IMG/VR virus record: IMGVR_UViG_3300036791_000224
Span: 1 to 43,699 of that record
From: a virus
DNA: 43,699 bases
Reading direction: 5' to 3' (one strand)
Each line of letters begins with the position of its first letter. Position 1 is the first letter of the stretch. The notes below the pieces were generated by a model that saw nothing but the letters and a program-made list of their open reading frames with translations, searched no databases and was not told where the DNA came from. This document shows positions 3,523-40,005 of the stretch, one piece after another. The position numbers and the translations under genes were made by a program.

Positions 3523-3712
3523 CGCCCGGCCCGATCTGCGCTCTCGTGCGTTCCTCGGCCCAAGCGTTCAGCACGGTGAAGACAGCCTCGCAGACCTTCT
3601 CGTAGACGTCGGGCGACACCGTTGGATCATCGGCGAGATCGAGCAGCGTCTCGGCGACAGAGCCGAAGCCCGCCTCGTGCAGCCGGGCGACCCCGATCGC
3701 CTCGATGCTCAC
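3512..3712 (-). CDS. Hypothetical protein, 66 aa
   Basis: A GTG at 3712 overlaps the upstream SLOG gene stop by four bases. The product is a small acidic helical protein (VYEKVCEAVFTVLNAWAEER) without a recognisable domain. Operon position is the only clue. Confidence 0.7.
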   Translation of the reverse strand: MSIEAIGVARLHEAGFGSVAETLLDLADDPTVSPDVYEKVCEAVFTVLNAWAEERTRAQIGPGDGR

Positions 3713-4047
3713 GAGATCACTTCGACGTCGACGCCCTGGTCGCGTGCGAGCCCGATCGTGTGGCGCGTGCCCGGCGACGTGCCGTCCCAGAAGGCGAGCA
3801 CGAGATCGGGCTTCGAGTGCAGCATCCGCGAGTTGCGCACGTAGCCCGCCTGCTTGGCGTCGCGCTTCCAGTTGGCCGGGTAGACCTCGCGATCGAGCCC
3901 GAGCTGCGCCGCTGTCGAGTCGGCCATCTGATCAGCCCCGAGCGCGCCGCCCGTCACGATCACCGCGTCGGCGGGCAGCTCGGCGAGACGTCGACGGATC
4001 GCCGTGCGATCAGTCCAGCCGCGCGACCCGCAGACGAGCACCCTCAC
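3709..4047 (-). CDS. DUF2493/YspA-type SLOG-domain protein, 112 aa
   Basis: The N-terminus VLVCGSRGW and the later VTGGALGADQMA are the two Gly-rich nucleotide-binding loops of the DUF2493 (YspA-like) branch of the SLOG superfamily, a Rossmann-like fold that binds nucleotide-derived ligands. Length matches single-domain phage members. SLOG proteins are common in phages and defence islands, and proposed roles include sensing or processing of nucleotide messengers. No partner effector is fused. Both ends overlap neighbours as GTGA, so it is expressed with the ParB cluster upstream. Confidence 0.85.
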   Translation of the reverse strand: MRVLVCGSRGWTDRTAIRRRLAELPADAVIVTGGALGADQMADSTAAQLGLDREVYPANWKRDAKQAGYVRNSRMLHSKPDLVLAFWDGTSPGTRHTIGLARDQGVDVEVIS

Positions 4048-9215: not shown

Positions 9216-9393
9216 TTGTCCCTCCTGGGGCGTTGACGGCTTGAGCGGGTCGCTCGGCTCCATCGGCCGCATGGGGGGAAGAGATCATCCGACGAGTCGA
9301 GATCGCCGCGCTGGTGTGAGCCGAGAGCGTAGCGCGAGCGGCGGCCGGTAGCACGCTTGCGGCTCTCGTGCGTGTCGCTCAGCGCTCGCATCG
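9216..9393. other. Intergenic or weakly coding 178-bp segment
   Basis: A minus-strand frame of 59 codons (9391 to 9212) overlaps the next start by GTGA but has no ribosome site and an Arg/Ser-rich, unconvincing product. I think this is mostly a spacer that may hold an internal promoter for the downstream genes. No clear -10/-35 pair was identified. Confidence 0.4.
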
Positions 9394-9879
9394 TCAGTAG
9401 CCCGCCATGCGCCAGAGCCGCTCCTCGTGCCGGGCCTGCGCCTGCTTGGCCTTGACGAAGCGCATCGACGCGCCGTTGCGACGGTCGACCTTGCGCTGCT
9501 CGGCGAGCGCGACGAGCAGCTTCCGCCCCGTCGCGAGCCGGACCTGCGCCTGCCGCTTCTCCGCGATCGAGCGCAGCGTCGTCTCGGTCAGCCCCGAGCG
9601 CCTGACCGCCGCGTCCCACGTCCCGCAGCGATCGACCAGCTCGCGGGCGAAGCGCGAGAAGCTCTCGACCTCGGCGAGCCCATGCGGCCCGCCCTGCACC
9701 TTGAGCACGTGCCAGTGGTGGCAGAGCTTGCAGTGCCCGAGCGGCCTCCCCTGCCTCGGCCCCGAGCGGTAGAACGACCAGTGGCGAGCGTCGAGCGGGA
9801 GCCAGGTCGGGTTCGGGTGCGCCGGGCCTCGGCAGAGCCGCGACTCAGCGACGATCGGGGCGACGACGTCGACGCTCAC
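9394..9879 (-). CDS. Zinc-finger/HTH putative DNA-binding protein, 161 aa
   Basis: GTG at 9879 is the only usual start in this frame. The first third carries CRGPAHP and HCKLCHHWH, a plausible Cys/His zinc site. Residues about 70-120 read like a helix-turn-helix (GTWDAAVRRSGLTETTLRSI), and the C-terminus is a basic helix (MRFVKAKQAQARHEERL). Together these suggest a DNA-binding factor of the replication operon. It overlaps the previous gene by about 35 bases, longer than usual here, so the start is less certain. Confidence 0.65.
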   Translation of the reverse strand: MSVDVVAPIVAESRLCRGPAHPNPTWLPLDARHWSFYRSGPRQGRPLGHCKLCHHWHVLKVQGGPHGLAEVESFSRFARELVDRCGTWDAAVRRSGLTETTLRSIAEKRQAQVRLATGRKLLVALAEQRKVDRRNGASMRFVKAKQAQARHEERLWRMAGY

Positions 9880-11601: not shown

Positions 11602-12831
11602 TCAGTACCCGGGCGGGAACTCGCCGTAGGGGACGGGGCCGGGGTCACCCTCGGAAGTGCTCGCCGGGCTCTCTGGCTGCTCGCCTCCCGCGCTGCCAGC
11701 GCTCGCGCGTCCCTCAAGCTCGACGAGCCGGTCGATGAGCTGCATCGCTTCCGGTCGCGTCAGGCTGTCCCGCAACGGGCCGAAGTGGAGAGCGCCGCTC
11801 TCGTCGCGGGCGCCCTCGATCACCGAGACCATGATCTCGACGTCGAGCCTGCGCATCTGCGCGACCGCCGCCCAGAGATGCTCGGTCGTCAGATGCGCGG
11901 GTCGCAGCGTCCCGATCAGCACGTTGAGCTTGCGCTTCTGCGCGTCGGTGATCGCCTTCGTCTGCTCGTCGGCGGGCGCTGCGGTAGCCTGCTCGGGCTC
12001 CGAAGGGGGAACCGGGGCGGGCTCGACGTCGAGATCGAGATCGTCAGGCCCGAACGCCGCCGCTGACCGGCCCGGGCTCCTCTGGGGGGAAGCCGGTACA
12101 GCGACGGCGCTCAAAGCCTGCTCGACGGTCGCCTCTCGCCTCGGGGCGTGCGTCGCACCCGAGGGCAGCTCCCGTACCGAGCCGTCGGCGGTGGGAGCGG
12201 CCAGAGCGAGGTAGCTGACCGCGAGGTCAAGGACGGGGACGACGTAGCGCACCGTCTGGCCGTCCTTGACGCCTCGACGCTGATCGAGACGCAGCTTCGC
12301 CGGGACGAACGTCTGCGCGCCCGCCTGCGCCTGGATGAGCGCCATCATCGTCGGCAGCTCGTGCCCCGCGATCGCGCCCCTCGTGATCAGCCGCCAGCCG
12401 AGCAGCGTGTCGAGCGCGGGCAAGCAGACGACGAGCCTTGTGTAGAGATCGCACTTGTCTTCCCCCTCGGCGTTGCAGATGCACGGCTGGCCGCTCAGCT
12501 CGTCCTCGACGCCGTCGCAGAGCCGCGTCCGCTTCGTCGCACCCTCCCACAACTCGTACGACTGCCGGACCGAGTAGCTCGGCATCACGAGCACGTCCAG
12601 CTCGTCGCGCTCGCTGTAGCACTGCCACTCCTCACCGACGGGGCTCGTCCACTTCGACACCGCGCCGCCGAAGATCGACGCCGCCTGCTCGACGAGCTGC
12701 CTGCGCGGGCTCGTGATCCGCCACGCTTCGAGCTTGCGCCCGACCCCCCGCTCGGGCTTCTCACCCCCGGCCCTGATCGCGCCGACGAGCGTCAAGCGGC
12801 GCTGCAAGTTGATCAGCGGCTCGGGGCTCAT
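11602..12831 (-). CDS. Gp3-like recombination directionality factor candidate, 409 aa
   Basis: ATG at 12831 in an ATGA overlap. The opening INLQRRLTLVGAIRAG, the block AWRITSPRRQLVEQAASIFGG, the SYELWEG segment, a Cys motif (LCDG, then PCIC and KCDLYTRL) and the later PAKLRLDQRRG follow the pattern of the Gp3-like RDF family of actinobacteria, named after phiC31 gp3. Gp3 binds its large serine integrase and switches it from integration to excision. The C-terminal third is a low-complexity linker plus a helical tail. A serine integrase is present at 16913, which fits. The family is broad, and many members have no tested RDF activity. Confidence 0.75.
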   Translation of the reverse strand: MSPEPLINLQRRLTLVGAIRAGGEKPERGVGRKLEAWRITSPRRQLVEQAASIFGGAVSKWTSPVGEEWQCYSERDELDVLVMPSYSVRQSYELWEGATKRTRLCDGVEDELSGQPCICNAEGEDKCDLYTRLVVCLPALDTLLGWRLITRGAIAGHELPTMMALIQAQAGAQTFVPAKLRLDQRRGVKDGQTVRYVVPVLDLAVSYLALAAPTADGSVRELPSGATHAPRREATVEQALSAVAVPASPQRSPGRSAAAFGPDDLDLDVEPAPVPPSEPEQATAAPADEQTKAITDAQKRKLNVLIGTLRPAHLTTEHLWAAVAQMRRLDVEIMVSVIEGARDESGALHFGPLRDSLTRPEAMQLIDRLVELEGRASAGSAGGEQPESPASTSEGDPGPVPYGEFPPGY

Positions 12832-16854: not shown

Positions 16855-16882
16855 CTTGGTGTTGTCGAAAACGCGCTACACT
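16855..16882 (+). promoter_or_regulatory. Candidate integrase promoter
   Basis: TACACT at 16877-16882 fits a -10 box; CTTGGT at 16855-16860 is a weak -35 at 16-bp spacing. The context CGCTACACTG recurs as CGCTACTCTG before the early operon (43472-43481). In both places it is followed by CCACCAAC and a CGGAGGCGACC ribosome site. Confidence 0.45.
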
Positions 16883-16912
16883 GTCGTCTCCACCAACGAA
16901 CGGAGGCGACCC

Positions 16913-18325
16913 ATGAGCAGCATCACCGCACCACCACTCGTACAGCAGCGCAGCTCGCGCGATCTCGACACGCTGACGGCCTCGCTCGTCGCGCGCCAGT
17001 CGCGATCTGACGACGGCTCGCTGAGCGTGCAAGATCAGATCGCGCAGATGCGCGACTACTGCGAGCGTCACGACTACGTCGTCGGCGCCGTCTACGAAGA
17101 GCGAGACGTCTCGGGACGTCGCCCGCTTGAGAAGCGTCACGGCCTCAAGCGCGCCGTCGACGACATCGAGAGCGGTCGCTCGCAGGTCCTGCTGACCGCC
17201 TACTTCGACCGCTTCGTGCGCAGCGTGCGCACCCGAGCCGAAGTCGTGCAGCGAGTCGAGCGCGCGGGCGGCGTCGTGATGACGATCGACGCCGGACGCA
17301 CGAGCGACGCGACAGCCGCCGACAAGCTCTCGGGGACGCTGCTCGCAGCCATCGCCGAGTTCTACGCCGATCAGACGGGAGAGAAGCTCATGTCCTCGAA
17401 GCAGCGCAACATCGACCGGGGCGTACCGCCCTTCCCGCGCGTCACGTCCGCGTACGAGCGCATCGCCAGCGGCGACGACAAGGGCAGGCTCCGTCCGCAT
17501 CCGATCAACGCGCCGCTCTGGCGCGAAGCCTGCAAGATGCGCGCCGACGGCAAGTCGTATATCGCGATCCAGCGCTACCTCGCCGCGAACGGCCTCACGC
17601 TGAGCCTCGCCGCTGTCGAGACGACGCTGCAGTCGCGACTTCTGATCGGCGAGCTGCACTTCGGCGACTTCACCCCGAACCTGCACGCGATCGAGAACCC
17701 GATCACCGACGCCGCGACCTTCCGTCGCATGAATCAGGCCCGAGCCCCGCGCGGTCGCCACTCGAAGAGCGATCGTCTGCTCGCCCGTCTCGGGGTCCTC
17801 GTCTGCGGGACCTGCGGCGCCCGCATGAGCGTCCACTCGACACGCAGCCGCGCGGGCACGCTGTACCCGTACTACACCTGCGGCAACCGCCTCTGCACGC
17901 AGAGCGCGACGATCTCTGCCCCGACCGTCGAAGACGCCGTCCGCGACGCAGCGATCAGCCTCTCGCACGACGTCGTCGGCCGCGTGAGCCTCGCAGACGA
18001 TCTCGAAGCAGCTCGTCTCAAGCTCGAAGCCGCCGACGAGACCTTGTCGAACGCGATCCGCACGCTGAGCGGTCTCGCCGGGGAGCCCGCCACGCGCGAA
18101 GTGCTCGACGAGCTGACCGCTGCGCGTGACGCTGCCGCTGACGAGCATCGTCACCTACTCGCCCTCTCGACCCCGGACCTGACCGTGTCGCTGACACTCG
18201 ACGAGTGGAACGAGATCACCCTCGACGAGAAGCGTGACGTCGTCCGAGCTGTCATCGCTCGCGTCGTCGTCGCCCCGGGGCGCGGGTCCGAGCGCATCAC
18301 GATCGAGGCCCGTCTCCGCGCGTAG
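16913..18325 (+). CDS. int: Large serine recombinase (phage integrase), 470 aa
   Basis: ATG at 16913 follows CGGAGGCGACCC. The N-terminal resolvase domain (about 20-165) opens with SLVARQSRSDDG, placing the nucleophile at Ser30, and contains AYFDRFVRSVR and LSGTLLAAIAEFYADQ, the catalytic Arg and long E-helix signatures. The recombinase domain follows, then a zinc ribbon (VCGTCGARM then YTCGNRLC) and a C-terminal coiled-coil segment (ADDLEAARLKLEAADETL). This is the full architecture of phage integrases such as phiC31 and Bxb1, though somewhat short. It should integrate the phage at a host attB, with excision controlled by the Gp3-like factor at 11602-12831. Confidence 0.95.
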   Translation: MSSITAPPLVQQRSSRDLDTLTASLVARQSRSDDGSLSVQDQIAQMRDYCERHDYVVGAVYEERDVSGRRPLEKRHGLKRAVDDIESGRSQVLLTAYFDRFVRSVRTRAEVVQRVERAGGVVMTIDAGRTSDATAADKLSGTLLAAIAEFYADQTGEKLMSSKQRNIDRGVPPFPRVTSAYERIASGDDKGRLRPHPINAPLWREACKMRADGKSYIAIQRYLAANGLTLSLAAVETTLQSRLLIGELHFGDFTPNLHAIENPITDAATFRRMNQARAPRGRHSKSDRLLARLGVLVCGTCGARMSVHSTRSRAGTLYPYYTCGNRLCTQSATISAPTVEDAVRDAAISLSHDVVGRVSLADDLEAARLKLEAADETLSNAIRTLSGLAGEPATREVLDELTAARDAAADEHRHLLALSTPDLTVSLTLDEWNEITLDEKRDVVRAVIARVVVAPGRGSERITIEARLRA

Positions 18326-18465
18326 CCGCCTGCGCGCGACTCGATCGAGCGCACGCTGTAGATCATCGAGAGCGTCGGGTGCAAGCTCGACGCTCTCGTC
18401 GGTCGTGCCGCCGCAGTCGACTCGATCGCTCATCGTGCCCCCTCGTGTCGAGTGCCGAGGTCGAA

Positions 18466-18487
18466 GGAGCGAAGCCTACCTCGCTCC
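18466..18487. repeat. Inverted repeat GGAGCGA-N8-TCGCTCC
   Basis: Perfect 7-bp arms at 18466-18472 and 18481-18487 flank an eight-base centre. It lies between the integrase and the regulator gene, so it could be an operator for the XRE protein or, less likely, part of attP. It has no U-tract and is not a terminator. Confidence 0.4.
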
Positions 18488-18520
18488 ATCCTCGCGTCAA
18501 GGTCACGCCGAGATCACTTC

Positions 18521-18540
18521 GCCGCTCGGAGCGGCTTTTT
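18521..18540 (+). terminator. Intrinsic terminator downstream of integrase
   Basis: GCCGCT-CGG-AGCGGC followed by TTTTT on the plus strand is a compact GC stem with a U-tract. It would end integrase transcription about 200 bases after the gene and isolate the regulator promoter. Confidence 0.75.
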
Positions 18541-18652
18541 CGTGTTTGGCGCCTCGCCTCGCTCGGTACTGCGAGCATCGTAGACTTGCGACCTGCGAGG
18601 AGGCGACCCGGACCTGTCGACGACTGCGGACAACCCAGAGCCCGGCTCTGCG

Positions 18653-19009
18653 ATGGCGAAGCGCCTGCGCGAGCTGCGCGCTGCAAGCGGGCTCACGCAA
18701 GCGGAGGTCGCAGAGAGGATCGGCGTCAATCGCCGCACCGTCTGGGTCTGGGAGCGCGGCGAGAACGTGCCGACGTTGCATCTGCCCGCGCTCGCTGAGC
18801 TGTACGGGACGACGTCGCGCTTCCTTCTCTACGGCGTCGACGAGTCGAGTCTCGAACTCGCGTCGCTACGCCACGAGGTCGCTCACCTGCATCTGCAGCT
18901 CACGCGGTCGTCGGACGCGACGGCGGCAGCGCTCGAAGCTCTGGCGGGGATGCTGGACGATCTGATCGTTCGCGTCGACGCGCTGCGTCGAGACGACCCC
19001 GGCGAGTGA
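18653..19009 (+). CDS. XRE-family HTH regulator (putative repressor), 118 aa
   Basis: Residues 1-60 form a classic XRE/Cro-C1 helix-turn-helix: KRLRELRAASGLTQAEVAER, then GVNRRTVWVWERG. The C-terminal half is a helical, heptad-like segment (LASLRHEVAHLHLQL) suited to dimerisation. No LexA-like autoprotease domain is present. I annotate ATG 18653, but it has no ribosome site. A strong AGGAGG (18598-18603) instead precedes an in-frame CTG at 18614-18616, which would add 13 residues. Place beside the integrase makes it the leading lysogeny repressor candidate; it converges on the PAS gene and overlaps it by 110 bases. Confidence 0.85.
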   Translation: MAKRLRELRAASGLTQAEVAERIGVNRRTVWVWERGENVPTLHLPALAELYGTTSRFLLYGVDESSLELASLRHEVAHLHLQLTRSSDATAAALEALAGMLDDLIVRVDALRRDDPGE

Positions 19010-19385
19010 TCAGCTCGACGGCGACGCGCTGTAGCCGTGTCAGGCTCGGCTCTTCGGTGAAGGGGCTCAAGATCGTTACGTGGATCGGGCCGAGCTTGCG
19101 CAGCGTGTAGCTCACTTCGATCTCGGAGCCGTCCCGGGCGACGAGCACGGTGACGTCGACGACGGTGTCTGACGACGCTTCGGCGATGTTGCGGTAGACC
19201 GTCTCGCGCCGCCCGTCTTCGTTGCGCAGCGTGTAGGTCCAGACGTCGCGACCGCGCATCTCTTCCGGTGTGTACCCGAGCAGAGCAGCGAAGCCCTCGC
19301 TGGCGGCGAGAATACGCCCCGTCGCCGCGTCGACGACTACGAGGTAGTGACCGGGCAGCTCGCCATCGAGACCGCGTCGAGCCAG
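18900..19385 (-). CDS. PAS-domain protein with non-canonical start, about 161 aa
   Basis: A full PAS/PAC fold is readable: YLVVVDAATGRILAASEGF, then LLGYTPEEMRGRDVWTYTLR, and later VDVTVLVARDGSEIEVSYTL. PAS domains sense ligands, redox state or light, or mediate dimerisation. No output domain follows; the last 45 residues are basic and Pro/Ser-rich. No in-frame ATG, GTG or TTG precedes the domain. An in-frame CTG (19385-19383) lies eight bases after GAAGGGG, and I use it as start. An ATG between them is out of frame and stops after 18 codons. The gene is antisense to the 3' end of the XRE regulator. Confidence 0.65.
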   Translation of the reverse strand: MARRGLDGELPGHYLVVVDAATGRILAASEGFAALLGYTPEEMRGRDVWTYTLRNEDGRRETVYRNIAEASSDTVVDVTVLVARDGSEIEVSYTLRKLGPIHVTILSPFTEEPSLTRLQRVAVELITRRGRLDAARRRERSDRPASPPELRALPPSRPTTA

Positions 19386-19451
19386 CGCGTCATCCCCTTC
19401 AACTTCCGAACGAAGCGGGGAGCATAGCGCGCGCTTTTTCGTCGGGGCATG

Positions 19452-19500
19452 AAAAAACGGGCGAGAGTCGAGCCCTGCGGTGGCTCGTGCTCTCGCCCGT
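19452..19500 (-). terminator. Strong intrinsic terminator of the late operon
   Basis: On the minus strand an 11-bp stem (ACGGGCGAGAG with CTCTCGCCCGT, 19457-19467 and 19490-19500) encloses a second 6-bp stem (CGAGCC/GGCTCG) and is followed by TTTTTT (19457-19452). It ends leftward late transcription just after the lysis genes and insulates the PAS gene. Confidence 0.88.
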
Positions 19501-19528
19501 CGTGGTCGCGGGGGTCTGGCCGCGATGT

Positions 19529-19627
19529 CTAGGTCGTCTCGTCCTCGTCGCCGTCGCCGTCGGGCTCGCTCGGGTCCGGCTCGCCCGGGGTCGGCTCGGT
19601 CGGCGTCGGCTCGGTCGTCTCGTTCAC
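19529..19627 (-). CDS. Acidic PT/EP-repeat peptide, 32 aa
   Basis: GTG at 19627 overlaps the upstream stop (GTGA) and has an AAAGGAGAG ribosome site. The product is extremely acidic and Pro-rich (TEPTPTEPTPGEPDPSEPDG), surely disordered. It is the last gene before the late terminator, next to the putative holin and endolysin. Roles in lysis timing or as a virion decoration are only guesses. Confidence 0.6.
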   Translation of the reverse strand: MNETTEPTPTEPTPGEPDPSEPDGDGDEDETT

Positions 19628-19881
19628 GATCTCTCCTTTGGCTTCGGTGGGGTGGACGGGAACTCGCGCGTGGTCTCATCGTCGAACGTCGGCCATCCGG
19701 TCTGCTCGCTCGGGTCGACGTCTCGCTCCCAGAAGACACCGACGCGGGTGCGGCGGAAGTGCGGACGGGCTTCGGCGCGGATCGCTCGATAGACGAGCCC
19801 CATGCCGATCACGACGACGAGCGCGATGATCGAGACGAAGACGAGCCCCTGCCAGTCGAGCGAGACCAGCTCGGCGCTCAC
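19624..19881 (-). CDS. Single-span membrane protein, putative holin or spanin-like, 85 aa
   Basis: GTG at 19881 overlaps the endolysin stop. One clear transmembrane helix near residues 11-33 (GLVFVSIIALVVVIGMGLVY) is followed by a basic, then acidic, Pro-rich C-terminal tail. Place immediately after the endolysin gene, which lacks a signal peptide, makes it the best holin candidate (class III-like topology). Other membrane lysis factors are possible. Confidence 0.65.
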   Translation of the reverse strand: MSAELVSLDWQGLVFVSIIALVVVIGMGLVYRAIRAEARPHFRRTRVGVFWERDVDPSEQTGWPTFDDETTREFPSTPPKPKERS

Positions 19882-20798
19882 GCGACGCGCACGAAGACGG
19901 TGCCCTGGCTGCTCGTCGAGCGACGGCAGCGCATCACTTGCCCGCCGTTCGAGTAGTTGCTCGGCGACGTGTTCCCCTCGATCACATCGAAGCTCGACCC
20001 ACCAGCCCAGCGCTCGAAGATGCCGACGTGGTCGTGCTCGCCGTCATACGACCAGTCGTAGACGACGACGTCACCGGGCACGGGCGAGCTTGTCACGCTG
20101 AGCCCGTTGCGCTGATTGCGGGCGTCGCTGACGATGTAGGGGCAATACGCGTAGTTCGAGCCCCGGGCGAAGCTCGGAGAGCCGCCGCCTTCCGTCTCGA
20201 AGCACCACGTGACGAACATCGCGCACCAGGGCTGGTGATTCATCCCGTACCAGTCGCCGTACTTCGTCGCGTTGTCGCCCGACTCGACGTAGCCGATCTC
20301 GCCGATGGCGGCGTCGAGCGCTCGCTCGCGCGTCGACTTGCCCGGCGTCGACGGTGCTGGCGGGGTCGCTGGCGGCTCCTTGCCGCCGTAGAGCTGCCAC
20401 GCCTGCGCGATCAGGTTGGCGGCGGTGACGTCCATCGCCATGTCGCCGCCGTGGGGCAGCTCGACGGGGATGCGGATCGAGCGGAGCGTGTTGAAGGTCT
20501 TCTCGCCGACCCAGCCTGTGTCGTCGATCTTCTGCTGACGCTGGATGCCAGCGATGCCCGTCTCGGGCACGTTGCCGCTCTTGCCGTGCGCGAACCCGTT
20601 GGAGTAGGCGCGATCGAAGGGCTGCCACGGCCAGCGTCCGGCCCTGCTGACGGTGCGCTTGTACGCCTCGACGTCGGGGCCGTCGACGCTCGCCGTCTTG
20701 CCCTGCTTGCTCGCGTCGGGCGGGTAGAGAGGGCGCGGGAACCCGGGCACGGCGACCATCGGCCCGCCCTTGTACGCCTGCTCCCACCAGTCGGTCAT
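19878..20798 (-). CDS. CHAP-domain endolysin with peptidoglycan-binding-like segment, 306 aa
   Basis: ATG at 20798. Residues about 80-110 (GIAGIQRQQKIDDTGWVGEK) look like a PG_binding_1-type repeat. A Pro/Thr linker (142-156) leads to a C-terminal CHAP domain with Cys192 in PWCAMFVTW, His257 in HDHVGIFE and an EGN motif at 274-276, the expected Cys-His-polar triad. CHAP enzymes cut peptide cross-links or the sugar-peptide amide bond of peptidoglycan. No signal peptide is present, so release should need a holin. It is followed directly by the single-span membrane protein, completing a lysis cassette. Confidence 0.88.
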   Translation of the reverse strand: MTDWWEQAYKGGPMVAVPGFPRPLYPPDASKQGKTASVDGPDVEAYKRTVSRAGRWPWQPFDRAYSNGFAHGKSGNVPETGIAGIQRQQKIDDTGWVGEKTFNTLRSIRIPVELPHGGDMAMDVTAANLIAQAWQLYGGKEPPATPPAPSTPGKSTRERALDAAIGEIGYVESGDNATKYGDWYGMNHQPWCAMFVTWCFETEGGGSPSFARGSNYAYCPYIVSDARNQRNGLSVTSSPVPGDVVVYDWSYDGEHDHVGIFERWAGGSSFDVIEGNTSPSNYSNGGQVMRCRRSTSSQGTVFVRVA

Positions 20799-21064
20799 GC
20801 GTCCTCCTCGGCTGCGAGTCGGTAGCCGCCCGGGATCGTCTCGGGCTCGCCGTCGGTGTCTGCGTGCTCGATCGTGACCGTGATCAGCTCGCGGTCGAGC
20901 TTGCCCTCGGCGTGCAGCTCGTCGAGCACGTCTGCGACCTCGGCGGGGTCGAGCCCTTCGGCTGCGAACGCGGCGGCGTTCGGAAAGATGAAGTAGTCGG
21001 CGCTCTGCCCGGCGAGCACCTTGAGCACTGCGAGCCGCACGTCGGCGTCCTTCGCCGCGCTCAC
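20795..21064 (-). CDS. Small winged-helix-like protein, 89 aa
   Basis: GTG at 21064 in a GTGA overlap. The sequence (ADVRLAVLKVLAGQSADYF, then LDPAEVADVLDELHAEGKL) resembles a small helical winged-helix fold, and a short beta tail follows. It sits between the collar gene and the endolysin gene, so it may be a late regulator or a minor tail factor. No named family. Confidence 0.68.
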   Translation of the reverse strand: MSAAKDADVRLAVLKVLAGQSADYFIFPNAAAFAAEGLDPAEVADVLDELHAEGKLDRELITVTIEHADTDGEPETIPGGYRLAAEEDA

Positions 21065-35238: not shown

Positions 35239-35468
35239 TCGTCCTTCCGAGCACGTGCGACCGCACCGGCATACGTCGGGTCGATGTCTGACTCCTTCGG
35301 CGTCGACGGGTCGCCGTACCAGCCGAGATCGAGCGCGGTCGTGTAGGGGTGCCCCTCTTCGAGCACCCCGGGATCGGTCGTCCCTGGATCGCCGCCCGGA
35401 TGGGCGGGCGTCGCTTCCGTGTCCGTCTTCGACGCGGTCTTCCTGGTGGGTGTCGCTCTCTCGCTCAT
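35235..35468 (-). CDS. Hypothetical Thr/Pro-rich protein, 77 aa
   Basis: ATG at 35468, or GTG one codon earlier at 35471, overlapping the capsid stop. The first 40 residues are Thr/Pro/Gly-rich and probably disordered. The remainder includes LDLGWYGDPSTPKESDIDP. Directly after the major capsid gene, it may be a small head or decoration protein. Function unproven. Confidence 0.68.
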   Translation of the reverse strand: MSERATPTRKTASKTDTEATPAHPGGDPGTTDPGVLEEGHPYTTALDLGWYGDPSTPKESDIDPTYAGAVARARKDE

Positions 35469-36439
35469 CACGCGTGGAGGAGGACGCCGAACGGGTAGCG
35501 GCTTGCCGCCGTCGGCTGCTCGTAGGTGAGCCGGTTCGCGACCTGGAAGGCGAAGCGGGCGACGACGCGCATCGCGACCATGTCCTGCTGCGCAAGGTTG
35601 TAGATCACCTGTGGCGGCGCCGAGTTGTCCATGATCACGGCCTGGTCGAGAATCTTCCAGGTGAGGTCTTGACGGATGCCGAGAAGACCCTGCGAGAAGT
35701 CGCCGACGACCGCTTCGGCCGCGCCCGTCGCCGGGGCGGGCCAGAGCCCGCGCATCGGGTAGTTGATCGGCACCGAGTAGACGACCGAGTCGGGCGTCGA
35801 CCCTGCGGGGCCGCTCGGCTCGGGGTTCGAGAGCTGCTCGCCTGTCGTCGCGCGGGCCTGACGGAGCTTGCCCTTGATCGTGCGGTTGGCGACGATCCCG
35901 TTGACGTCGTAGCCGAACGCTTCGACCTTGCCGAAGACGTCCGAGAAGTCGCCGACGATGCCGCCTGCCGCCGCCGCGTTCGCGCCCTCGGTGACGGTGG
36001 CCCCGACAGTGGTCGCCTCGGCGATGATCGCGCTGGGCCAGCTCGCGGGCTTGTTCGTCCCGAAGAACACGGCCGCGTCGAGCGCACGAGCGAGCGCCTC
36101 CGTGAGCTGCGGGCGGATCAGCCCCCAGATGTCATAGGCGACGTCGTCGAGGACGGGCTCGGGGATCGGGACGATCGCCGCAAGCTCTTCGGCGTTGAGG
36201 TAGAGGTTGGCCCACTGAGCCTCGGTCGTCTGCTTGATCCCCGTATCTCCGTTGACGAAGTACGCCATCGCAAGCGCCGACTCGGCGGGCATACGAAGCT
36301 GCCCGCGCGACATCGGGACGTGGCGGAACATGCTCAGCGCCGCCGACTCGTCGGGTATGTGCTCGATGATGTCTCGCGCGTACTCCTCGGGGATGAGGGC
36401 AGTCGCCCCCGTGCGGTCGACGATGTTGTTGTAAGCCAT
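35468..36439 (-). CDS. Major capsid protein, HK97-like, 323 aa
   Basis: ATG at 36439. The N-arm and E-loop region (ALIPEEYARDIIEHIPDESA, then PVPEPVLDDVAYDIWGLIRP-like) and the C-terminal AVIMDNSAPPQVIYNLAQQD with VVARFAFQVANR follow the HK97 capsid fold of many actinophages. No N-terminal protease domain is attached and a separate scaffold gene lies just upstream. It is the central gene of the head block. Confidence 0.93.
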   Translation of the reverse strand: MAYNNIVDRTGATALIPEEYARDIIEHIPDESAALSMFRHVPMSRGQLRMPAESALAMAYFVNGDTGIKQTTEAQWANLYLNAEELAAIVPIPEPVLDDVAYDIWGLIRPQLTEALARALDAAVFFGTNKPASWPSAIIAEATTVGATVTEGANAAAAGGIVGDFSDVFGKVEAFGYDVNGIVANRTIKGKLRQARATTGEQLSNPEPSGPAGSTPDSVVYSVPINYPMRGLWPAPATGAAEAVVGDFSQGLLGIRQDLTWKILDQAVIMDNSAPPQVIYNLAQQDMVAMRVVARFAFQVANRLTYEQPTAASRYPFGVLLHA

Positions 36440-37071: not shown

Positions 37072-38562
37072 CTACTTCGTTGGTGGTACGGGTTGCGTCT
37101 TCTCGGTCGCGCTCGTCGGGGCGACAGTCGTCGCCTCACCGGCCTGACCGGGGAGCTGCGCGCTTGCTTCGCCGGGGCTCGCGGCGATCGTCTCGCGCGC
37201 CACGACGGGCGGGCCTTCGGGCTCGCCCTCGGTGATCCAGCGCTCGACCTGCTGCGGGGTCGCGCCGACGAACTCCCAGAGGGCCGGGCGGGGAACGCCG
37301 ATCGACGCGAGCTTCACCGCTGCGTCGACGATCTCGGCCGTCGAGCGGACTTCGGGGTTGCGCCAGATCGTCTCGCAGCTCGTCGACGTCGAGCGCATCT
37401 CGTCGCCCTCGATCTTGAAGCAGAGCCGCATAACCTCTTCCCAGCCCTCGCCGAGCGCGAGCTGCTTGCGCTTCACCTTCGCGACGAGCCCCGTCTCGGT
37501 CGCCTTGAGCGACTCACCCGACGGGAACGCGCCCGACTGCCCGAGCAGGTAGTGCGGCGGCGTGCGCGTCTGCGCGGCGACGTGCTGGATCAGCATCTCG
37601 ATCGCCTTCACGTAGATGCCGAGGTCGCTGACCTGGAAGTTGCCGAACTTGGCGTTGACGTCTTCGACTGCGAAGACGCGATCGGCGCCGCCGAGGAACT
37701 GCGTGAAGCTCGGGAGCGGCTGCCCGGCGAGCGTGTGGTCGGCCGGGTAGACCGGAATCTCGATCCCGGTCACCCAGCGCTGCGGGAACGCCGCGTACTC
37801 GGACGCAACGATCATGTCGGCGGCGATCTTGTTGACGGCGTCTTGGAGCGGGATCACGCGCTCGATGTCTGAGCGGCCCTGACGCTCGCGCAGCGTCGGC
37901 GCGTTCGGCAAGGGCACGAGCGGCACGACCCCGAGCGGGTTCGCGCCCGAGCCGACCTCGTCTTCGATCCAGATGTCGCGCTTCTCGTCGCGGTGGTACC
38001 ACACGATCTGATCGGGCAGGTAGACGACGCAGTGCTCGACGCCCCACTCGTCGACCCAATCGCGCAGCCCCGCGAGCCGCGTCCGGCCCATCGCCGGATC
38101 AAGCGCCACGATCGCGTTCGTCGGCGGCTCGATCTGCACCGTCGGCTCGCCGCCGTCGTCGGGGCCGACAAGCGCGTACGAGCAGCCGAGCTTGACCGAC
38201 TCGGAGTGCGCGAGATCGCTCTCAGCGTCGAGGTCGTTCGCCTGCCAGATGTCCCACGCCTTCGAGTCGCCCTGCGAGTCCTCGTCGAAGCGGAAGCCCT
38301 CGACGACGAGCCGCTCTGCGCTCGCGTCGACGACGAGGTCGCACCAGTTGTCCGAGAACGTCGCGAAGATGATCCCGAAGACCTCGCGGAACTTCGCCGT
38401 CGCGAACAGCAGCTTGTGCTCGCCCTTGTAGTAGGAGTCGAACTTCGCGAGGCCGGGCTGCCGCGCGGCGAGCTGGCTGAGCAGCGCGTCGCGCCAGTCG
38501 TCGGGCGTGCTCGACGTCGGCACGACGACCGGGGTGCTCAGCGGTTGCAGGGGGTCAGCCAT
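37072..38562 (-). CDS. Portal protein, SPP1 gp6-like, 496 aa
   Basis: ATG at 38562. Portal hallmarks are visible: KFDSYYKGEHKLLFATAKFR near the N-terminus, RLAGLRDWVDEWG with the wing region, QPLPSFTQFLGGADRVFAVE and the stem/crown helix AIEMLIQHVAAQTRTPPHYL. The last 60 residues are Pro/Ala-rich. It follows the large terminase and precedes the scaffold, the usual order. The portal is the 12-fold vertex through which DNA is packed. Confidence 0.93.
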   Translation of the reverse strand: MADPLQPLSTPVVVPTSSTPDDWRDALLSQLAARQPGLAKFDSYYKGEHKLLFATAKFREVFGIIFATFSDNWCDLVVDASAERLVVEGFRFDEDSQGDSKAWDIWQANDLDAESDLAHSESVKLGCSYALVGPDDGGEPTVQIEPPTNAIVALDPAMGRTRLAGLRDWVDEWGVEHCVVYLPDQIVWYHRDEKRDIWIEDEVGSGANPLGVVPLVPLPNAPTLRERQGRSDIERVIPLQDAVNKIAADMIVASEYAAFPQRWVTGIEIPVYPADHTLAGQPLPSFTQFLGGADRVFAVEDVNAKFGNFQVSDLGIYVKAIEMLIQHVAAQTRTPPHYLLGQSGAFPSGESLKATETGLVAKVKRKQLALGEGWEEVMRLCFKIEGDEMRSTSTSCETIWRNPEVRSTAEIVDAAVKLASIGVPRPALWEFVGATPQQVERWITEGEPEGPPVVARETIAASPGEASAQLPGQAGEATTVAPTSATEKTQPVPPTK

Positions 38563-38565
38563 CTC

Positions 38566-40005
38566 TCAGAAGCTCACGGGTACGCGCGAGCGCGGCTTCC
38601 AGCCGGTCGCGATCAGATCGCAGCGCGCCTCGTACGCGAGCACGGCTGCGGTCGCTAGGTCGATGTGGTCGCCTCTCGCCTTTTCGAGCCAGTAGCCGCC
38701 GCGCGTCTCGCGGACCGTCGCGGCGAGGATATGGCGGGTGAGATCGTCGTCCCCGGTGTGCGGCACGAGCCCCTCGCGCACGTCGGTGCGGAAGCGCTCG
38801 GTCGCCGCCATGAATCGCGAGCGGTTGGTCGGGTAGCGCACGACGACCTCTTCGCCGTAGTCGCGCGCCCACGAGTCGATCTCCGACTGCCAGAGCGGCG
38901 GGTCGAAGTACGCGCGAGCGACCTTGTACGTCTCGAACGCCTCGGCGACGATCGCGTCGACTTCGCTCGTCGGCACTTCCCACTCGCGCACGCCCTGCGG
39001 GCTCTCCCAGAGCCCGAGCGGCTGCACGAGCCCGTCGCTGAGCCTGCACGCCACGAGCCCGGTCGCGTCGCCGTAGCGCGAGCCGTCGAAGCCGAGCGCG
39101 ACGACGTCGCCGGGTTCGAGCACGAAGGGCGACTCGGCGTCGCGCCAGTCTTCGGGCTTGAGCCACCACGCCTCCGAGCCCGTCCAGATGCCGCACGCGA
39201 AGCGCTGCCACTGCCACGGCAGCATCGAGGGCGAAGAGTGCCGCTGCGCGAGCATCTCGATCGTCTGCCAGCTCGCCGGGTTGACGAGCTTCACGAGCTG
39301 CAAGTTGTCGGTGTCGTCGGTGTCGTCGAGCGCCCACTCGTGCATCGCGAAGGCGTCGTCGGGCGTGCGCACGTGCCGGTAGCGACCCTCGATCGTGAGC
39401 CCGGGCAGCTTGCGCGCCGCTTGCCGCATGAGCCCGAGCGCGCTCAGCTCGCGATCCCCGGCCGTCGAGATCGTGATCATCTGCCCGCCGCGCGGGCCGA
39501 GCCCGTCGCGGAAGATGCCGTAGAGGTCAGCCGACTTGTGGCGGTGCAGCTCGTCGACGAGCGCGAGCGTCGGGATGATCCCGTCGGCGGTGTCGACGTC
39601 GGCCGCGAGCACCCTGATCCGGCCCGAGTCGAGCTTCGAGCGCACTTCGCGGTAGCCGCGCTTCGTGACGACGCGCTCTTGCAGCTTCGGCGAGCGCGAG
39701 ACGAAGCCGACCGCCTGCTCGTACAAGATCGTCGCCTGGTCGCGGCTCGCGGCCCCGATCACGCACTCGGCGTCAGCGACGCGGATCAAGTGCCAGAGCG
39801 CGAGCGCGGCGAGCAGCGTCGTCTTCCCGTTCTTCTTCGGGATCAGCACGAGCGTCTCGACGACGCCGTCGAAGTAGTCGGCTAGCAGGCGACGCTGGTA
39901 GTTCTCAAGCGTGAGCGGCCCGCCCTGCTCAAGTAGAAGCAGCGCCTCGCAGAAGCGGCCGAACGCGCCAAGCTCACCCGGCCCGGAGGCTGCGCCGTGA
40001 GGCAA
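38566..40005 (-). CDS. terL: Terminase large subunit, 479 aa
   Basis: The N-terminal ATPase has LIPKKNGKTTL with Walker A at 56-62 and LALVDELH with the Walker B Asp-Glu at 151-152. The C-terminal nuclease has ALGFDGSRYGDATGLV with its first acidic residue and ARGDHIDLATAAVLAYE with the last. The start is TTG at 40005, the only usual in-frame start, which overlaps the small subunit by about 32 bases. TerL packages DNA through the portal at 38562. Family pattern is that of terminases of siphoviruses and myoviruses of actinobacteria. Confidence 0.95.
   Translation of the reverse strand: MPHGAASGPGELGAFGRFCEALLLLEQGGPLTLENYQRRLLADYFDGVVETLVLIPKKNGKTTLLAALALWHLIRVADAECVIGAASRDQATILYEQAVGFVSRSPKLQERVVTKRGYREVRSKLDSGRIRVLAADVDTADGIIPTLALVDELHRHKSADLYGIFRDGLGPRGGQMITISTAGDRELSALGLMRQAARKLPGLTIEGRYRHVRTPDDAFAMHEWALDDTDDTDNLQLVKLVNPASWQTIEMLAQRHSSPSMLPWQWQRFACGIWTGSEAWWLKPEDWRDAESPFVLEPGDVVALGFDGSRYGDATGLVACRLSDGLVQPLGLWESPQGVREWEVPTSEVDAIVAEAFETYKVARAYFDPPLWQSEIDSWARDYGEEVVVRYPTNRSRFMAATERFRTDVREGLVPHTGDDDLTRHILAATVRETRGGYWLEKARGDHIDLATAAVLAYEARCDLIATGWKPRSRVPVSF

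Follow-up and report, generated by a model that had tools for sequence, protein, structure and literature searches.

The DNA analysed here, which we call the window, is a virus record of 43,699 bases with a GC content of 69.6%. A late operon on its minus strand leads from the terminase, portal and head genes to a CHAP endolysin together with a small membrane protein and an acidic ORF of 32 aa (Table 1). The small membrane protein is holin-like, with one apparent membrane segment in its sequence, and gave no match in Pfam and NCBIfam profile searches. Between the late and the early genes lie a large serine integrase and an XRE-family regulator, both on the plus strand, and a minus-strand frame at 18900-19385 that encodes a PAS domain. 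The integrase begins at ATG 16913 with GGAGG upstream. An attP-like imperfect inverted repeat directly before this start is a candidate attP. The presence of a serine integrase, an XRE regulator and an attP-like repeat therefore indicates that this soil phage is temperate, and if the repeat is attP, the PAS gene would map to the end of the prophage nearest the integrase. The Gp3-like recombination directionality factor of the early region is the likely partner of the integrase. The early region also encodes, on the minus strand, a pyridoxal-phosphate-dependent enzyme (1841-2833; PALP, 3.7e-15) and a YspA/cpYpsA-related SLOG-family protein (3709-4047; 6.3e-16).

Table 1 Features of the window and, in the last row, of the related viral record L119.
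Feature	Positions	Strand	Details
Gp3-like recombination directionality factor	11602-12831	-	6.2e-25; early region
attP-like imperfect inverted repeat (candidate)	16856-16896		TTGGTGTTGTCGA / TCGTCTCCACCAA
Large serine integrase	16913-18325	+	Pfam Resolvase 8.9e-21, Zn_ribbon_recom 2.4e-9
XRE-family HTH regulator	18653-19009	+	118 aa; Pfam HTH_31 7.6e-12, HTH_3 9.4e-10; convergent with PAS
PAS frame, C-terminal tail up to the stop	18900-19001	-	antisense to the 3' end of XRE; codon bias absent; importance doubtful
PAS coding region	19002-19385	-	128 codons from CTG 19385 (probable start); core at about residues 10-110
Shine-Dalgarno-like sequence	19386-19402	-	AAGGGGATGA; AAGGGG 8 nt from CTG 19385; duplex -10.5 kcal/mol
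Late-operon intrinsic terminator	19457-19500	-	11-bp perfect basal stem; -32.3 kcal/mol; U6 at about 19451-19456
Small holin-like protein	19624-19881	-	
CHAP endolysin	19878-20798	-	Pfam CHAP 3.5e-11; late gene used to place relatives
Major head protein	35468-36439	-	late gene
Portal	37072-38562	-	late gene
Terminase	38566-40005	-	late gene
L119: PAS remnant, then excisionase-type HTH_17, in one frame	9264-9723	-	adjoins the lysis genes, convergent, on the strand opposite the lysin

The initial annotation had recognised the PAS domain from readable motifs such as LLGYTPEEMRG, and this assignment is confirmed. The frame is open down to its stop at 18900-18902, and the quoted motifs are present. 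The protein exceeds the curated cut-offs of both TIGR00229 (39.5 bits against 22.9, E 5.5e-10) and Pfam PAS_9 (PF13426; 31.4 against 27, E 2.4e-7). Among six-frame ORFs, a profile of cellular PAS domains only matched it at 4.6e-17, a value that is not independent because the members of the profile were fetched by similarity to the window PAS. The AlphaFold model that the annotation had proposed as a check shows a PAS core. A single-sequence model was poor, and the model used instead was built from a 43-row alignment, which itself included PAS domains; its block pLDDT is about 70-95 over residues 11-110. In Foldseek, solved PAS domains were matched at E of about 5e-7. There were 653 PDB matches at E <= 0.001, and among the matches listed the best were PAS or LOV domains. 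Lack of any profile match, or absence from all relatives, had been named as grounds against a PAS domain; profiles match and some relatives carry PAS genes, so the assignment stands.

The gene product would be essentially one PAS domain of about 128 aa plus the tail. Pfam finds only PAS in it, with neither an HTH nor any other output domain. PAS domains normally sense a ligand, redox or light. Residues 1-115 contain no Cys and no GxNCRFLQ motif with its flavin-reactive Cys. The helix at residues 59-69 of the AlphaFold model is devoid of His, and there is no proximal His in the F helix; His occurs only at residues 13 and 102. LOV-type light sensing and FixL-type haem sensing are thus unlikely, because the Cys, the LOV motif and the F-helix His are all missing.

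Codon bias in the PAS frame is gene-like over about 19010-19395 and absent both upstream and in the tail. No in-frame ATG, GTG or TTG lies between the terminator and the PAS domain. The start-like codons before the first strand of the domain are CTG 19385 and CTG 19358, the latter inside the leading segment of the domain. CTG 19385 is the probable start. Its Shine-Dalgarno pairing is similar to that of the endolysin (-10.5 against -11.6 kcal/mol) and is equalled or bettered by just 1.4% of the CTGs in the window. Since bacteria rarely start genes at CTG, the start may be mutated or the assembly may contain an error here. Every ATG in the stretch from terminator to domain lies in another frame and soon runs into a stop; these were rejected as starts. 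The upstream frames were likewise rejected as the true N-terminus, with a negative codon score and the terminator intervening. We conclude that the PAS gene is real but start-codon-poor. The annotation had placed a late terminator beside this gene, and the stem, the fold energy and the U6 run on the minus strand show that it is real. This strong terminator closes the late operon about 60-110 bases before the PAS gene, which therefore needs its own promoter or read-through. A sigma-70 scan recognised no promoter for the gene.

The window PAS protein has no close relative in viral contigs or deposited phages, and no near-identical copy was found on which selection could be tested. The matches in GTDB genomes were generic PAS domains only, with 28-56% identity across the aligned part. 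DNA similarity to phage records was absent from 17000-21000. Relatives of the head protein occur in 2 of 396 sampled genomes of Actinomycetota, the one phylum covered, at 54 and 46% identity. The integrase has relatives in 6 of 399 genomes of one actinomycetotal class, with no PAS nearby. We searched about 60 related viral records, many of them fragments, with PF13426 and then with a phage-PAS profile. PAS genes were found only in L083, L084 and L119, and most relatives lack one. Searching with degenerate patterns derived from all three of these phage PAS proteins added no relative.

L083 and L084 are the viral records with the nearest integrases, 53-54% identical to that of the window, and since they are nearly identical to each other they count as one independent case. 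Both encode a diverged 177-aa PAS protein between lysin and integrase, on the strand of the lysin, with an ATG start and GGAGG upstream. The PAS domain forms the C-terminal half. It exceeds the TIGR00229 cut-off (27.6 bits, 2.6e-6) and matches the cellular PAS profile at 4e-7, and it falls below the Pfam cut-off. About 75 N-terminal residues of the L083 protein are absent from the window protein. The stop of this PAS gene and the start of a small frame for a membrane protein overlap. In the L083 phage, a DnaA-box-like TTATCCACA (L140, about 17984-17992) stands between the acidic ORF linked to the lysin and the PAS gene. A small minus-strand ORF of the window (18155-18433), mostly antisense to the integrase 3' end, resembles L084 8093-8338 (41% over 66 aa, E 2e-7), a likeness that may stem in part from the integrase, conserved on the opposite strand.

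L119 was found through its endolysin, 63% identical to that of the window. It carries a PAS remnant followed in one frame by an excisionase-type HTH_17 (4.4e-8, over the cut-off). The remnant matches the window PAS pairwise at E 6e-7 and scores 20.2 bits with TIGR00229, just under the cut-off. Because it lacks the first strand and has an in-frame stop just upstream, the copy may be decayed, and its N-terminus is uncertain. The frame continues antisense to a holin-like gene. The annotation had suggested looking in related phages for a PAS gene next to an XRE gene. The PAS gene does recur in the same slot, while the XRE partner does not: no XRE was detected beside the PAS genes of L083, L084 and L119, and no other conserved partner gene was found. 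The comparison thus describes PAS genes that are sporadic, diverged and tied to a slot, not to XRE.

Phages are already known to encode PAS proteins, some of them receptors and others short and little annotated. VqmA of vibriophage VP882, a receptor for DPO, combines PAS with a LuxR-type HTH (PMC8284805, PMC12802170). Its PAS domain is both the binding site of DPO and a requirement for dimerisation (PMC8284805), and the protein controls the lytic switch and turns on the antirepressor gene qtip (PMC8284805, PMC12802170). The window protein is likewise a phage-encoded PAS protein, but it consists of PAS only, whereas VqmA has its own C-terminal HTH and the qtip target. In the XRE-LuxR modules of the Aeromonas phages Apop and ARM81ld, XRE and a LuxR receptor with an HTH form one operon (PMC10432266). 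As in these modules, an XRE gene of the window adjoins a sensory-type gene in a temperate phage; there the two are an operon, whereas the genes of the window converge and their pairing is not conserved. The single PAS proteins of TIGR00229 and PF13426, some from uncultured Caudovirales, have the same fold, and some are short with little besides PAS. Viral examples differ from the window PAS in sequence, with 8-20% identity in the best fold matches. The excisionase-type HTH_17 (PF12728, phrog_66) of the L119 frame is absent from the window protein. What appears new, on the basis of two independent relatives, is the PAS slot recurring by the integrase in soil phages together with the joining of PAS to HTH_17. 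None of the papers searched mentions both a PAS domain and an actinobacteriophage.

We tentatively prefer, at somewhat less than an even chance, the explanation that the window encodes a small single-PAS protein, started at CTG 19385, as an accessory regulatory gene in a variable slot with the lysis cassette on one side and the integrase on the other. The PAS domain might bind a small host molecule or simply dimerise. By protein-protein contact in trans it could then change the activity of a DNA-binding regulator, either of the phage or of the host, and phage gene expression or prophage maintenance would follow the state of the host. The occurrence of a PAS remnant and a DNA-binding HTH in one frame of L119 makes a regulatory link plausible. 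Since relatives keep other PAS genes in the slot, one of them fused to a DNA-binding domain, an accessory regulator is suggested; the L119 arrangement, the slot and the phage receptors VqmA (PMC8284805) and XRE-LuxR (PMC10432266) support a module acting in trans. Two curated models and the fold, codon bias confined to the domain and the Shine-Dalgarno sequence at the CTG also count in favour, as do the slot genes of L083/L084 and L119. Against it stand the missing standard start, output domain, conserved partner and sigma-70 promoter, the lack of PAS in most relatives, the possible decay of the L119 copy, and the failure to find a near-identical copy for a test of selection.

According to the annotation, the PAS gene would tie the lysis/lysogeny choice to host physiology by acting on the adjacent XRE protein or as its antisense. 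The location in the lysogeny module and the recurrence of the slot agree with the general proposal; specific action on XRE is unsupported, as L083, L084 and L119 have PAS without detectable XRE and L121 shows the reverse, an XRE gene past its lysin and no PAS. In viral contigs only one distant XRE relative was obtained, without PAS. A dedicated modulator of the XRE protein in a two-protein switch is quite unlikely, even though the two genes adjoin, pairs of XRE and receptor govern induction in phages of Aeromonas (PMC10432266), and L119 has PAS and HTH in one frame; the genes converge and do not form an operon. XRE could be the specific partner, but the comparison of relatives does not favour it. 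The only candidate for a shared operator of the XRE and PAS promoters was a 10-mer, GCTTTTTCGT, mostly a T-run. The XRE gene and its tail-to-tail overlap of 110 nt with the PAS frame lie where they had been placed, but the overlap does not couple the two genes as claimed, because genes arranged tail to tail are not translationally coupled and an overlap this long is expected by chance. The PAS frame enters the XRE gene because it meets no earlier stop. In the antisense frame of this genome stops make up 2.7% of codons, and 36 open codons have a probability of about 0.38, for which reason we reject the overlap as a meaningful feature. The codon bias inside it belongs to XRE. Convergence and overlap would also suit a locus that acts as an antisense RNA to the XRE 3' end. 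We regard this as highly improbable, since such an overlap is expected by chance in a genome of 70% GC, the PAS domain has protein-coding codon bias, and the PAS-bearing relatives do not share the arrangement.

Conversion cargo and a decayed fragment are serious rivals to the accessory regulator. As a moron, the PAS protein would be expressed from the prophage and act on host signalling with no part in the lysis/lysogeny choice of the phage. Its position by the integrase and the attP-like site, not in the late operon but behind its terminator, fits such cargo, as do its sporadic presence among relatives and the stand-alone PAS proteins of unknown role in other phages. We nevertheless find a moron rather unlikely, because diverged PAS genes recur in the slot beside integrase or lysis genes and the excisionase-type HTH in the L119 frame suggests phage regulation. 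The locus could also be a decaying or captured piece of a PAS gene, no longer made after loss of its proper start and output domain. The lack of an ATG, GTG or TTG start, the N-terminal residues of L083 that the window protein lacks and the truncated look of the L119 copy agree with decay. The frame, however, is intact across the whole domain with clear codon bias, the AlphaFold core is well formed and the Shine-Dalgarno sequence at the CTG is strong, and we consider a defunct fragment unlikely.

If the accessory regulator is taken further, a group of temperate soil phages may fill the slot that separates lysis genes from integrase with exchangeable PAS modules, stand-alone or joined to an excisionase-type HTH, that tie prophage maintenance to a host signal, with the module of the window translated from a CTG. 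We put this forward as a speculative and, at present, improbable generalisation. With one gene and two diverged examples behind it, the case is a lead, not a system. To our knowledge, phages have few described ways of sensing the state of their host other than LexA/RecA-type damage signals, quorum receptors and arbitrium. A PAS slot recurring by the integrase in uncultured soil phages would help to find new signals that prophages heed.
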